Positions 3,030 to 49,899 of a DNA stretch of 64,000 nt are shown here, in pieces. Made by a program: the position numbers and the translations under genes. Positions within the stretch are counted from its first letter, which is position 1; each line of letters starts with the position of its first letter. Below the pieces are notes generated by a model that did no database searches, had not been told where the DNA came from, and worked only from the letters and a program-made list of their open reading frames with translations. Source of the stretch: Marinobacter sp. es.042 (lineage in GTDB: Bacteria > Pseudomonadota > Gammaproteobacteria > Pseudomonadales > Oleiphilaceae); NCBI RefSeq assembly GCF_900188315.1, contig NZ_LT897781.1, forward strand, positions 1,426,001 to 1,490,000. Direction: 5' to 3'.

Positions 3030-5737
<2,708 letters not shown>

Positions 5738-43865: not shown

Positions 43866-44978
43866 TCAGGGATTCACCTGCTGAACCTGAATATACCGCT
43901 GACTCCGCCGGGTTCTGTCCTCGACCCGCCCGACCAGTTGCCCACAGGCGGCGTCAATGTCATCGCCCCGCGTGGTTCTGATAGTGGTGATGTAGCCAGC
44001 TTCGTTTAGAACGTTCTGGAACCGCCGCGTGGCATTCATGCTCGGTCTCCGGAAATCGCTCTCCGGAAACGGGTTGAAGGGAATCAGGTTGATCTTGCAC
44101 GGAAGATCCCGCAACAGCACCGCCAGTTCCCGGGCGTGCTCGGGCTGATCGTTCATCCCCTCGATAACGGTGTACTCGATCGTAGCCTTACGCTTGTCTG
44201 GCAAACGGGCGAAATACCGCTTGGTGGCCGCAAGCAGCTCTGAGATCGGGTACTTTTTATTCAACGGAACCAGTTTGTTACGCAGTTCATCATTCGGGGC
44301 ATGCAGGGAAATGGCCAGTGAAACATCGGTAACTTCCGACAGGCGATCCAGCGCAGGCACCACGCCAGAGGTACTGAGGGTCACCCGGCGCTTGGAGATC
44401 CCGTACGCAAGATCCTCCATCATGAGGTTCATGGCGTCCACGACATTGTCAAAATTGAGCAGGGGCTCGCCCATGCCCATCATGACCACGTTGGTAATCG
44501 GCCGATCGGGGCCCGGCTCAAAAGGCATGAAGGCCTTGCGCGCAACCCACACCTGGCCAATGACTTCCGCCGCAGTCAGATTACGGTTAAAGCCCCGCTT
44601 GCCGGTGGAGCAGAAAGTGCAGTCCAGGCTGCAACCAATCTGTGAGGAAACGCAGAGTGTGCCGCGTTCGCCATCGGGAATCAGTACCGTCTCCACGCTG
44701 TTGCCGTTGTCCATGCGCATCACCCATTTGCGGGTGCCGTCTTTGGAGGTTTCGTCGTACACCACCTCAGGACCACGGATCTCGGCAACCTGCTTCAGCT
44801 TTTCCCGAAGCGCCTTGCTCATATTGGTCATTTGATCGAAGTCATCGGCGCCACGCTGATGGATCCACTGCAAAACCTGAGTGGCACGAAAACGCTTCTC
44901 TCCCAGGGACTCGAAGAAGGCCTCGAGCTTTGCTTTTGGCATTCCCAGGAGATTGGTTTTTTCAGCGGCCGCTGTCAT
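43866..44978 (-). CDS. rlmN: Dual-specificity rRNA/tRNA adenine-C2 methyltransferase RlmN
   Basis: A radical SAM enzyme that methylates C2 of A2503 in 23S rRNA and A37 of some tRNAs. It is 370 aa. The 4Fe-4S motif is [18 protein letters not shown] (C-x3-C-x2-C). SAM-binding [12 protein letters not shown] and the catalytic cysteine in [13 protein letters not shown] near the C-terminus are present. The N-terminal domain ([18 protein letters not shown]) is typical. It lies between ndk and pilW, 63 bp after ndk. Confidence 0.97.
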
Positions 44979-45041
44979 TTCATAACCTCGATCAGATAAT
45001 CAATTCGGAGGCGACCGGATGATCGCCCCCGATCAACGCAA

Positions 45042-45470
45042 TCAACCCCTCGGGCAGATCTCGTTGTCATTGAAGAAGTAAGCGATTTCGCGCTCGGCAG
45101 AAGCCGTGGAATCAGAGCCGTGAACGGCGTTTGCGTCGATGGACGATGCGAAATCAGCGCGGATAGTGCCCGCCTCGGCTTCTTTCGGGTTGGTCGCGCC
45201 CATCAGGTCACGGTTTCTAAGGATCGCGCCTTCACCTTCCAGAACCTGCACAACCACCGGACCGGAGGTCATGAATGCAACCAGGTCGTTAAAGAACGGA
45301 CGCTCTTTGTGCTCTGCGTAAAAGCCTTCTGCCTGCTCCTGGGTGAGGTGCATCATCTTGGCAGCAACGATGTTCAGCCCAGCTTTCTCGAAGCGGCTGT
45401 AAATTTCGCCGATCACGTTCTTTGCGACCGCGTCGGGCTTGATAATCGAGAGCGTGCGCTCAGTTGCCAT
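45042..45470 (-). CDS. ndk: Nucleoside diphosphate kinase
   Basis: Balances nucleoside triphosphate pools by phosphate transfer through a histidine intermediate. It is 142 aa. [18 protein letters not shown] at the N-terminus and the active-site histidine in [20 protein letters not shown] are present. GGAG precedes the ATG. In pseudomonads ndk follows the end of the isc operon; here it follows iscS directly, with a 68-bp gap that holds a TATAAT box of its own. Confidence 0.98.
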
Positions 45471-45512
45471 GGTATTTCTCCAGTTTGTGGATGGTTAAAA
45501 TTGTGGCCTGCG

Positions 45513-45518
45513 ATTATA
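45513..45518 (-). promoter_or_regulatory. Candidate -10 box for ndk
   Basis: A perfect minus-strand TATAAT in the 68-bp iscS-ndk gap, about 43 bp before the ndk ATG. The -35 region is poor (TAGGAA at 17 bases), so activity is uncertain. Confidence 0.4.
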
Positions 45519-45538
45519 CGCAGTCCGGGGCAAACTTC

Positions 45539-46687
45539 CTACCGCACTGCGCGGAGGCGGCTAACAACATCAACTATTTGCGCGCTGGCAAACGCCACTT
45601 CCTCTTTCGTGGTATAGCGGCCGATGGAAAAGCGCAGCGCACGATGGGCCTGCTCTTCACTCAACCCGATGCCACGGAGTACGTATGAAGGCTCTACCGT
45701 GGCTGAAGCGCAGGCCGAACCGGAGGATACCGCCAGATCCCGAAGGCCGAGCATCAGGGACTCCGCATCTACCCCCTCAAAGGAAAGATTCAGTATGCCC
45801 GGGACGCGCCGGGATTCACTGCCGTTGAGAGTGACACCCTCGAGAGACCGGAGCCCAGCCAGAAACGCCTCCCGCAGGGCTTCCAGCTTCTCCACTTCCT
45901 GTTCAAGCGCGGACTGGGCGATCTCGAACGCCTTCCCCATTCCGACAATCTGATGGGTGGGGAGCGTTCCGGGGCGCATTCCTCGCTCATGGCCACCACC
46001 ATGAATCTGCGCCTCGATACGAACATCCGGCGACCGCCTGACGTACAGGGCGCCGACGCCCTTCGGGCCATAAACCTTGTGGCCGGAAAGCGCTAGCAGA
46101 TCCACCGGCATGGTACCGACATCAATTGCCATCTTGCCGGCGGCCTGGGCGGCGTCCACGTGAAAAAGAATGCCTCTTTGACGCAATTCCGCACCAATGG
46201 CGGCAATATCGTTAATGGTTCCCAGCTCGTTGTTCACCAACATCAGGCTGACGAGCACGGTATTTTCCTTGAGCGCATCCAACACCTGATCAAAACCGAT
46301 GGTTCCGTCGGCTGCCGGCTCCAGCCAGGTGACTTCAGTACCCTGATGCTCCAGCCACTTGCAGGTGTCGACAACCGCTTTGTGCTCGATCCTGGAGGTA
46401 ACGATATGAACGCCCTGTCGGCCGGCAACCGCCCCTTTGATGGCGAGGTTGTCTGATTCCGTTGCCCCCGAGGTCCAGACAATCTCCCGCGGATCAGCGT
46501 GAACGAGACTGGCAACCTTTTTGCGCGCAGCTTCCACTGCGGCCTCTGCCTGCCAACCATAGGCGTGGGTGCGGGATGCCGGATTACCGAATACACCATC
46601 CAGCGTGAGGTATTTCATCATTTCATCAGCAACGGCTGGATCAACGGGCGTGGTGGCCGCGTAGTCCATATAAACGGGCTTTTTCAT
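45539..46687 (-). CDS. iscS: Cysteine desulfurase, IscS subfamily, lacking the usual C-terminal tail
   Basis: A PLP enzyme that removes sulfur from cysteine for Fe-S cluster, tRNA thiolation and other pathways. The start at 46687 ([19 protein letters not shown]) gives 382 aa; a 41-codon upstream extension overlaps iscR and is rejected. PLP contacts [24 protein letters not shown] and the Schiff-base lysine in [11 protein letters not shown] are present, and the catalytic cysteine is in [17 protein letters not shown]. The protein stops after SRLRAVR, about 20 residues earlier than E. coli IscS, so the SPLWEMY...EWAHH-type IscU-contact tail is missing. No iscU follows; ndk does. Confidence 0.94.
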
Positions 46688-46709
46688 GGATTCCGGAAAC
46701 TTGTTGGTG

Positions 46710-47207
46710 TTAGGCCGGCGCCTGATCGGACAGGCGTTCGGTATTGATGGTTTCAGAGCCACTGTCGGACTGGCGGCGATTTTGCCGGTCCGCAACCTGG
46801 CGAATTTCATGCTTCCTCATCAGGTCTCCGAGACTGATCTCGCTGAGAAACTGATGAATCTGATCACTGAGATCAGACCAGAGGTGGTGGGTCAGACATT
46901 TCTCGCCATTCTGGCAATCGCCTTTGTTGGCGCACCGGGTGGTATCCAGCGATTCGCTGACGGCATCAACAACTTCGGCAATGTAGAGATCAGCCGCAGG
47001 ACGACTGAGCCTGTATCCACCACCGGGACCGCGAATACTGACAACCAGTTTCTGGCGGCGGAGACGGGAGAAAAGCTGCTCCAGGTAGGACAGTGAGATT
47101 CCCTGACGCGCCGATATATCGGCCAGACTCACCGGCCCCTGGTCTCCATGCAGAGCCAGATCCAGCATTGCCGTAACGGCATAGCGGCCTTTGGTGGTCA
47201 ACTTCAT
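46710..47207 (-). CDS. iscR: Fe-S cluster-sensing transcriptional regulator IscR (Rrf2 family)
   Basis: A winged-helix regulator that senses Fe-S status through a [2Fe-2S] cluster. It is 165 aa. It begins [20 protein letters not shown], the recognition helix region includes [14 protein letters not shown], and the cluster ligands are at C92, C98 and C104 with H107 ([20 protein letters not shown]), the same positions as in E. coli. It lies 22 bp before iscS. A type 1 IscR-like site overlaps its promoter. Confidence 0.97.
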
Positions 47208-47285: not shown

Positions 47286-48059
47286 TCAGCGCCGCACCTC
47301 TTCGTCGTCTCGCACGCAATCGAAATCTTCCTCGTGGAGCGGTGGCAGTTCGCCATTCTGATATTCACTGTTCACCTTGCGCAACGCCTTGCACATATTC
47401 TCTATGCGGTCATCCACCGCATGCATGTGATCAAGCAACGAGCGCATGGCCCGTGCTACGGGGTCCGGCATTTCTTCCGTAACGCCGTATGCATCGAAGC
47501 CCATTCGCTCTTCCATTTCCTTACGGCGGGCATCGTCTTCGCCCTGGCGTTTGACAATAACGCGACCAGGAATACCTACAACGGTTGCACCCTCTGGCAC
47601 TGCCTTGGTAACCACCGAGTTTGAACCAATCTTGGCACCCTCGCCTACTTCAAAAGGCCCCAGAATCTTGGCGCCGGCACCAACCACCACATTGTTGCCA
47701 ATCGTGGGATGCCGCTTACCCTTGTTCCAGCTGGTTCCGCCCAGCGTAACCCCTTGATACAGGGTTACGTCGTCGCCGATCACTGTAGTCTCACCAATAA
47801 CAACACCCATGCCGTGGTCGATGAAAAAGCGACGACCAATGGTTGCACCTGGATGAATCTCAATGCCGGTAAGCCAACGGGCGATCGTCGAAATGGTCCT
47901 CGCAAGCCATTTCAACCCCAAACTCCACAACCAATGGGAAAACCGATGGAAAAGCAGTGCGTGCAAACCCGGGTAGTTGGTGAGCACTTCAAAGGTGTTC
48001 CTGGCGGCGGGGTCCCGATGGAACACGCTGTTAATGTCTTCCCGCAAACGCTCAAACAT
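47286..48059 (-). CDS. cysE: Serine O-acetyltransferase
   Basis: Acetylates serine as the first step of cysteine synthesis. I start it at ATG 48059 (257 aa, [20 protein letters not shown]), with AGGA eight bases upstream. An ATG two codons earlier also fits, and the longer upstream frame inside trmJ is rejected. The C-terminal half has left-handed beta-helix hexapeptide repeats ([41 protein letters not shown]) with the catalytic His-Asp in the DINS and IDHGMG regions. Its start overlaps the trmJ end. It is upstream of iscR, which places cysteine supply next to the desulfurase. Confidence 0.96.
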
Positions 48060-48915
48060 GGCCATTGTCCTGTTCCGTCGCCGCAGTATCGGCCTCGGTT
48101 GATTTGCTGTTGTTCCGTGTGCCCGCCGCTTTTTGCACAGCGGTAAGGATGCCCCGGAGGATATTGATCTCCATCTGATCAAGTCTGGCTCGCTGGAACA
48201 GCCGCCGCAAGCGCGTCATAAGCTGCCTGGGGTTCTCCCGCCGATGGAAATCAACATCGATAAGGACCTGCTCAAGATGCCCGAAGAAGCCCTCGACATC
48301 GTGGACTTTCGCCGGCGGCACATCCCATCCTTCGTCCCCGGGCCGGGTCATCGACTGTAAGTATGGGCTTCCTTCACCGCCTTCAAGGCTTCGGAGGTAA
48401 TACATCCGCAACTCATAGCACATGACCTGCACCGCCATGGCCAGGTTCAGAGAGCTGTAATCCGGATTGGAGGGAATATGAATATGATAATGACAACGCT
48501 GCAGCTCATCGTTGCTGAGACCATGATTCTCCCTTCCGAACACCATGGCCACCGGGCCACTGCCGGCGTGTTCTGCGGCCGCGGCCGCAGCCTCCGGCGG
48601 GGCGCACACCGGCCAGGGGACTTTTCTGCCCCGGGCACTGGTACCCATTACCAGAACGCAGTCGGCCAGCGCCTCATCGAGCGAAGTCACCACCTGGGCG
48701 CTATCAAGCACATCGGAAGCCCCCGCCGCACGGGCGTATGAAGCCTCGTCCGGAAACGAAGACGGGTTTACCAGCCACAGATTGCCGAGCCCCATATTTT
48801 TCATGGCACGGGCGACCGCGCCGATATTGCCTGAATGGGATGTCTCAACCAGAACGATCCGGATCTGATCCTGGAATGTTTCCGTCCCTTCCTGTGGAAG
48901 TGCGCTTTTATGCAT
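48052..48915 (-). CDS. trmJ: tRNA (cytidine/uridine-2'-O-)-methyltransferase TrmJ
   Basis: A SPOUT-family enzyme that methylates the 2'-hydroxyl at position 32 of certain tRNAs. From ATG 48915 it is 287 aa; an in-frame TTG at 48930 is possible. The knotted catalytic domain shows [20 protein letters not shown] near the N-terminus, [14 protein letters not shown] (motif 2) and [19 protein letters not shown] (motif 3). A C-terminal helical region of about 90 residues is typical of TrmJ. It is divergent from suhB and is the first gene of the trmJ-cysE-iscR-iscS series. Confidence 0.95.
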
Positions 48916-48950
48916 CGTTAGCAGGCCCAAGGTTATTGATCAGGGCGGCA

Positions 48951-49086: not shown

Positions 49087-49899
49087 ATGAACACTCAGAT
49101 GCAACCAGCTATTAAAATGGCCCTGCGCGTCGCGCGTCAGGGGTCTGATTATCTGAAAGCCCATTTCGAGCGCCAGGAACCTACCGGCAAGGACGACTCA
49201 GAACGCCGTCGTCAGCTGGAACGGGTTGAGCAATCTATTTATGATAATTTTGCCGAACAGCTCGAAAAAGCCTACAAAGACCACAGCATCGCGCCCCTGA
49301 ACGAAGCGGATGCCGGAACCAGCGAAAAGAGCTGGCATATTTTCCCTGTCCTGGGCCGTGAAAATTTCCTTCGGGGCATTCCGGAGTTCGCTCTGGCACT
49401 GTCCCAGAAAAAGAATAACCGCACCGAAAACCTGCTGCTGGTTAACCCCGTTACCGGCGAGGAATACTCGGCCAGTCGCGGCCATGGTGCGGCGCTCAAC
49501 AGCCGCCGCGTTCGCGCTTCGGAAATCAAGCTGCCGGAGAAAGCCGCCATCGCCACCAACCTGCTGGACCAGGCTCGAAAGAGCGAGGATCCGATGCTCT
49601 GGGGCGAAATGGCCGCCGTACTGGCCAGAGACTCTGGTATGTTCCGCACCTCCGGCTGCGTGGTGCTGGATATCGCCCGTGTGTCCGCCGGATTGATGGA
49701 CGCAGCCATCATCTTTCGCCCGGAAGCCGCGGAGCTGGATCTTGGCGTCACACTGGCCATGGAATCCGGTGCCCTGACCGGCGATTTCTCGGGCAATCCG
49801 TCCACCGGGAACGCCCGCCAGCTGGTGGTTGCAAACCCGAAACTGTTCCGCGAAGTGCTCAAGGTCCTGCATCCGTTCCGGGGCCGCCTGCCTCGCTGA
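49087..49899 (+). CDS. suhB: SuhB-like protein of the inositol monophosphatase family, catalytic residues lost
   Basis: A 270-aa homologue of SuhB (start MNTQMQPAIKMALRVARQG; the second ATG at 49099 is possible). The fold is recognisable: GEEYSASRGHGAALNSRRVRAS, FRTSGCVVLDIARVSAGLMDA and MESGALTGDFSGN align along SuhB. The metal-binding motifs do not survive. EESG is replaced by NEADAG (72-77), IDPLDGTTNF by IFPVLGRENF (85-94), so both Asp become Phe and Leu, and RPWD by RPEA. Phosphatase activity is therefore unlikely. E. coli SuhB also acts non-enzymatically in the rRNA antitermination complex. Its position next to trmJ is the one suhB has in pseudomonads, which supports orthology. Confidence 0.85.
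   Translation: MNTQMQPAIKMALRVARQGSDYLKAHFERQEPTGKDDSERRRQLERVEQSIYDNFAEQLEKAYKDHSIAPLNEADAGTSEKSWHIFPVLGRENFLRGIPEFALALSQKKNNRTENLLLVNPVTGEEYSASRGHGAALNSRRVRASEIKLPEKAAIATNLLDQARKSEDPMLWGEMAAVLARDSGMFRTSGCVVLDIARVSAGLMDAAIIFRPEAAELDLGVTLAMESGALTGDFSGNPSTGNARQLVVANPKLFREVLKVLHPFRGRLPR

Follow-up and report, generated by a model that had tools for sequence, protein, structure and literature searches.

The gene at positions 49087 to 49899 of the window, by which we mean the whole 64,000-nucleotide stretch of Marinobacter sp. es.042 DNA that was analysed (contig NZ_LT897781.1, positions 1,426,001 to 1,490,000), is a Marinobacter suhB orthologue that lies next to trmJ, and its product has lost metal ligands of the inositol monophosphatase (IMPase) family. 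From sequence comparisons, we consider it probable that this protein has become a pseudoenzyme that is kept as a Nus factor for ribosomal RNA (rRNA) antitermination, with catalysis residing in another gene. According to this reading, the SuhB orthologue would have lost the ability to hold the catalytic Mg2+ ions, would be inactive as a phosphatase, and would retain a structural role, in which a SuhB dimer docks via its C-terminal helix on the AR2 domain of NusA and helps to build the rRNA antitermination and folding complex on boxA. IMPase-type catalysis would reside, in most of the examined genomes with such a dead SuhB, in a different SuhB-like gene, most copies of which lack the NusA contact. 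The evidence comprises the lost ligands, the conserved contact positions, synteny, the predicted fold, purifying selection, the presence of NusA AR2 and boxA, and the distribution of the second gene.

Residues are numbered as in E. coli SuhB, and E67, D84, D87 and D212 were scored as the metal ligands. Three parts of the window protein bear on them:

Positions 49291 to 49326, forward strand: loop (residues 69-80) that takes the place of the EESG metal loop and is shorter by two residues, with E67 lost in the alignment.
Positions 49339 to 49359, forward strand: IFPVLGR replacing IDPLDGT (D84 to F86, D87 to L89, T89 to R91).
Positions 49729 to 49734, forward strand: position of the WD motif (W211 to A215, D212 to E216, gap-free alignment).

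Three of the four Mg2+ ligands (E67, D84 and D87) are gone and D212 is Glu, so the protein does not carry the ligand set of an IMPase, whereas E. coli SuhB keeps all four. The SuhB of P. aeruginosa (PDB 8wip and 8wdq, the latter crystallised with inositol-1-phosphate according to its entry title) also differs from the window protein in keeping DPLDGT. A sequence-only reading of this stretch had described the change of IDPLDGT to IFPVLGR with the loss of both Asp residues, and the alignment bears this out. It had also rightly seen that the EESG loop is replaced, I--APLNEA being aligned with IITEESG of E. coli; its change of WD to EA was read one residue off, and an acid remains at 212. An intact E/D/D/D set was found in none of 121 Marinobacter-type proteins (P0001-P0121, with three fragments whose gaps were counted as lost), most of which have Asp at the 212 position, and in none of 80 genome-collection loci (L273-L352, the best 80 of 167 relatives in that scan). 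Chance and sequencing error are thus rejected as the cause.

The identity of the gene is given by its locus as well as by its sequence:

Positions 49087 to 49899, forward strand: suhB orthologue without the metal site, 270 amino acids from this ATG, no internal stops.
Positions 48052 to 48918, reverse strand: trmJ (SpoU methylase family), divergent neighbour of suhB; the same pair occurs in E. coli.

The open frame of SuhB length beside trmJ had been recognised from the letters alone. Most of the listed relatives start at an internal Met at 49099 (266 amino acids). The protein belongs to the IMPase family by its PF00459 match (58.5 bits against a Pfam cut-off of 27), and the PDB entry closest to it is SuhB of P. 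aeruginosa (E 4e-32). Its identity to E. coli SuhB is 24%, and the two proteins share the trmJ neighbour, the length, the fold and the C-terminal NusA-AR2 contact positions; an IMPase-type fold is predicted over the full length of the window protein. Among 120 listed of 136 homologues, nearly all that are named come from Marinobacter. The window protein misses the NCBIfam PRK10757 equivalog cut-off of 332 bits (92.6 bits). Because an intact relative from the same order also falls below that cut-off (321 bits), we take PRK10757 to be a narrow model that does not define the orthologue.

The NusA contact tells a different story from the metal site. In E. coli SuhB, K251 and L254 form the interaction-mode-1 contact with NusA AR2, as described in the cited part of PMC6614801. 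Their counterparts in the window protein lie in the following element:

Positions 49837 to 49887, forward strand: C-terminal helix (residues 251-267 by alignment; a helix in the predicted model) with R255 (K251 in E. coli) and L258 (L254 in E. coli).

All 61 dead copies have Lys or Arg at position 251, and most have Leu at 254, so the NusA-contacting residues whose conservation had been proposed as a check are indeed kept. NusA was found in all 69 genomes searched, and its AR2 domain is visible in all 42 genomes with a dead SuhB, with its start shortened in family f7. At each of the three 16S rRNA loci of the same genome (L429, L430 and L431), GAGC-AACA-GCTC is followed by CGCTCTTTAAAA (boxA, two mismatches), GTGTGGGC and then 16S, and TGCTCTTTAACA stands downstream of 16S; the labels boxA, boxB and boxC are given by likeness to the E. 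coli leader, where the same pattern recovered boxA. The boxA upstream and the boxA downstream of 16S differ at these three loci, with two mismatches in the former and an exact match in the latter. Contacts of the window protein with NusA and RNA polymerase are a putative role that would fit these sequences. In genus g89 of family f38 (L271 and L272; G287 and G243), NusA is 42 and 41% identical to that of E. coli (E about 1e-88) and SuhB is dead; the diverged NusA together with the dead SuhB may reflect a reshaped antitermination system.

The gene is under purifying selection. The median ratio of nonsynonymous to synonymous substitution rates (dN/dS) is 0.131 for suhB (236 usable of 378 pairs among 28 Marinobacter sequences) and 0.113 for trmJ (62 pairs among 27 sequences), with pairs dropped when dS lay outside 0.05-1.5. 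In a search of 151 genomes from Marinobacter's GTDB family, which comprise 16 genera including Marinobacter, Hahella, Oleiphilus and Mangrovitalea, the suhB query matched all 151, with E values no higher than 4.8e-36 in 150; the exception, G073, which is 68% complete, matched only at 5e-9, perhaps through another PF00459 gene. All 39 loci of this family (f1) that were read with their flanks, covering the 16 genera, have trmJ beside suhB. None of the 38 readable loci has an intact ligand set, and the 39th (L094, Marinobacter genome G139) is broken by a frame change at about 3444-3555, which could reflect either a genuine loss or a faulty assembly.

The loss extends well beyond this family. From a sample of 195 genomes of the order, SuhB motifs were read in further families, and only dead copies were found among the SuhBs read in seven of them: f6 (including Saccharospirillum mangrovi), f7, f25 (Marinomonas), f35 (Halomonadaceae), f36, f37 and f43. 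Family f38 is mixed, with dead and intact copies, and in 32 families, for each of which one to four genomes were read, all copies are intact. Two f36 genomes (loci L175 and L194) keep E67 and D87 and have lost D84, which looks like a partial erosion of the metal site. The sequence-only reading had proposed that a single lineage keeps a metal-free SuhB for its RNA polymerase role. This proposal is supported in part. The absence of an intact set, a dN/dS of about 0.13, the contact positions, AR2 and boxA all agree with the loss and the retention; the scope is not one lineage but nine families (eight dead-only among those read and one mixed), with eroded copies in f36. No trmJ-linked SuhB was found in three small f15 genomes (L153, L154 and L155; G164, G202 and G332), where the best matches are other PF00459 proteins in loci with no trmJ; f15 NusA keeps AR2 in both genomes checked (G164 and G332).

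On a NusA tree, which counted the two f15 genomes as intact although they lack a trmJ-linked SuhB, the dead state requires five changes, three of them forced by starred branches. On a NusA and TrmJ tree it again requires five, two of them forced (a quick tree, with 6 of 70 rows lacking TrmJ). A single clade of all dead rows except those of f38 is not rejected (approximately unbiased test, p-AU 0.076). Within f38, dead and intact rows cluster together, on a long branch (approximate likelihood-ratio support, SH-aLRT, 99). The loss in f38 is therefore probably separate from the rest, and at least two losses of the metal site are likely.

A second, intact IMPase-type gene had been suggested as something to look for, and one is present. 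The genome has three PF00459 genes: the window suhB, a SuhB-like gene (L001) and L002, which is CysQ and shares PF00459 with the window protein but differs in scoring 308 bits against the TIGR01331 equivalog cut-off of 229. None of the three is an intact trmJ-linked suhB located elsewhere in the genome. Like the window protein, L001 matches PF00459, and it has the RRxGSAALD motif described for SuhB orthologues in the cited part of PMC5516325. Unlike the window protein, it keeps all four metal ligands, has Glu and Arg at 251 and 254, lies elsewhere in the genome, and belongs to its own clade; no trmJ was seen by eye among the open reading frames of its 3.7-kb locus. In a quick family tree from which dead copies were left out, the 28 L001-type rows make up a single clade (SH-aLRT 98), next to another that holds 52 SuhBs (93). 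A recent duplication of suhB as the source of the paralogue is not supported, given this separate clade. The case in which L001 would be the true suhB and the window copy a diverged paralogue is likewise disfavoured: because L001 has Glu and Arg at the contact, no trmJ seen beside it, and a clade beside SuhB, the window copy is the better orthologue.

The distribution of L001-type genes follows the dead state. A search of the 69 genomes with L001 gave at least 233 bits in 32 of 42 genomes with a dead SuhB and at most 157.4 bits in all 25 intact and both f15 genomes, a clean gap. Across the order, 43 of 195 genomes have the gene (next best score 168.8), and all 43 belong to the eight families in which every SuhB read was dead; SuhB itself was read in part of these 43. 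Only two of 276 genomes across the class have it, both among the 43, and the others score 167.8 at most. Among 57 L001-type copies read, some of them fetched twice, 56 have all four ligands and the other carries Ala at 84; four have Lys or Arg at 251. The co-occurrence of a dead SuhB with the second gene is new here and comes from few independent events. Since L001 has all four ligands, IMPase-type activity may live on in that gene.

Several observations weigh against a pseudoenzyme, and some of them would favour a protein that is still an enzyme, in which alternative acidic or His side chains rebuild the metal site for another substrate. At the D212 position, 41 of the 61 dead copies still have Asp or Glu, the predicted fold is kept, Halomonadaceae proteins have E, H and D at 84, 87 and 212 as candidate ligands (REHD was read in 105 of 120 Halomonadaceae-type matches listed, P0122-P0241), and in f36 (L175 and L194) E67 and D87 are still there as candidates. 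Because of these candidate ligands, a reshaped metal site may exist in Halomonadaceae and f36. As a general explanation it appears unlikely: in Marinobacter, 84 and 87 are occupied by Phe and Leu, the residue at 84 changes with the family (F, D, N, S, E, L, H or Q) as would not be expected of a conserved new site, and T89, E68, D44 and G156, present in 41 of 41 intact copies, and E205, present in 98% of them, each survive in no more than 10% of the dead ones. The contact has exceptions of its own, with Thr, Ala or Ser at 254 in 7 of 61 dead copies. Position 251 is neither Lys nor Arg in 9 of 19 ligand-intact SuhB-like proteins from other orders, which are the class matches most like L001, chosen without regard to trmJ linkage, and the Lys/Arg contact is therefore not universal. 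Moreover, human IMPA2 fits the predicted model about as well as SuhB does, so that the fold alone is indecisive for function. The identity of only 24% and the 92.6 bits against PRK10757 would also fit another IMPase-family gene having replaced SuhB beside trmJ and lost catalysis for unrelated reasons, the family tree having been built without dead copies. We consider a replacement quite improbable, because the divergent trmJ pair is that of E. coli, the best PDB match is SuhB, the N-terminal, R139/R141 and C-terminal NPK-F-K positions are common to intact SuhB, and the intact relative also falls below the cut-off.

The paralogue occurs only alongside a dead SuhB (32 of 42 dead, none of 25 intact genomes), and E. 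coli SuhB dimerises (PMC6614801, in the part cited); the dead copy could thus serve chiefly to assist or regulate the intact paralogue, for example in a heterodimer, instead of being a Nus factor. This is highly improbable in our estimation. The L001-type gene is absent from 10 of 42 genomes with a dead SuhB, and the NusA contact is among the positions kept. In a comparison by independent pairs there were too few contrasts and the sign test was not significant, so 32 of 42 against 0 of 25 does not represent many independent events. The low identity to E. coli SuhB and the frame break in G139 might finally be taken as decay of a gene with no function left. The probability of this is almost negligible, and both the dN/dS and the frames that stay open throughout the family reject a pseudogene; in addition, the query matched every family genome, and P3, W81, G132, R139, R141, E222 and G224 are identical in 61 of 61 dead copies.

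The pseudoenzyme reading can be set beside work on E. coli, where IMPase activity of SuhB was demonstrated (PMC4807359). The cited passages of PMC6614801 describe relief of suhB-mutant effects without a need for activity, and those of PMC4807359 describe no obvious metabolic need for the activity and leave its link to the rRNA role open. In these papers, the dispensability of the phosphatase for rRNA synthesis rests on E. coli mutants. The SuhB dimer is portrayed as a hub touching NusA, S10 and NusG (PMC10250234, in part). R184A is suggested to stabilise the E. coli dimer, wild-type SuhB being dimeric too (PMC6614801, in the part cited for the dimer). All 61 dead copies have lost R184, and by analogy their dimer may be independent of metal. 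The SuhB of M. tuberculosis, by comparison, reportedly dimerises upon Mg2+ binding. Our search was confined to the openly licensed (Creative Commons) literature, which leaves out subscription journals; among the papers listed, none described a SuhB lineage that is catalytically dead, and none on SuhB D87N was found.

We tentatively suggest, with rather less than even confidence, that the two roles of SuhB are split between genes in much of the order, the trmJ-linked copy being a permanent, Mg2+-independent Nus-factor dimer and the separate SuhB-like clade carrying catalysis. If so, positions that the dead copies retain and that mostly differ in the paralogue would indicate which parts of SuhB act in the transcription complex; they include M1, P3, L9, R10, E112, H113, E124, S128, R139, R141, L226, D229 and K251. 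Opposite retention in dead copies and paralogue is modest (Spearman -0.25, p 0.025, 79 positions), and none of the four 2x2 tables was significant. A large bacterial group appears to have run the experiment of releasing the metal site with the NusA-contact site still constrained. It would offer ready-made separation-of-function proteins and a residue list for a candidate Nus surface, and many proteins named inositol monophosphatase in databases from Marinobacter, Halomonas, Marinomonas and their relatives are probably not phosphatases.

Elsewhere in the window, on the reverse strand at 43866-47207, iscR- and iscS-like open reading frames (identified by eye) are followed directly by ndk and rlmN (Pfam), with no iscU between them. 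The IscU family PF01592 had no match in this genome (matched in 12 of 14 control genomes), and two SufB/SufD-type genes are present.
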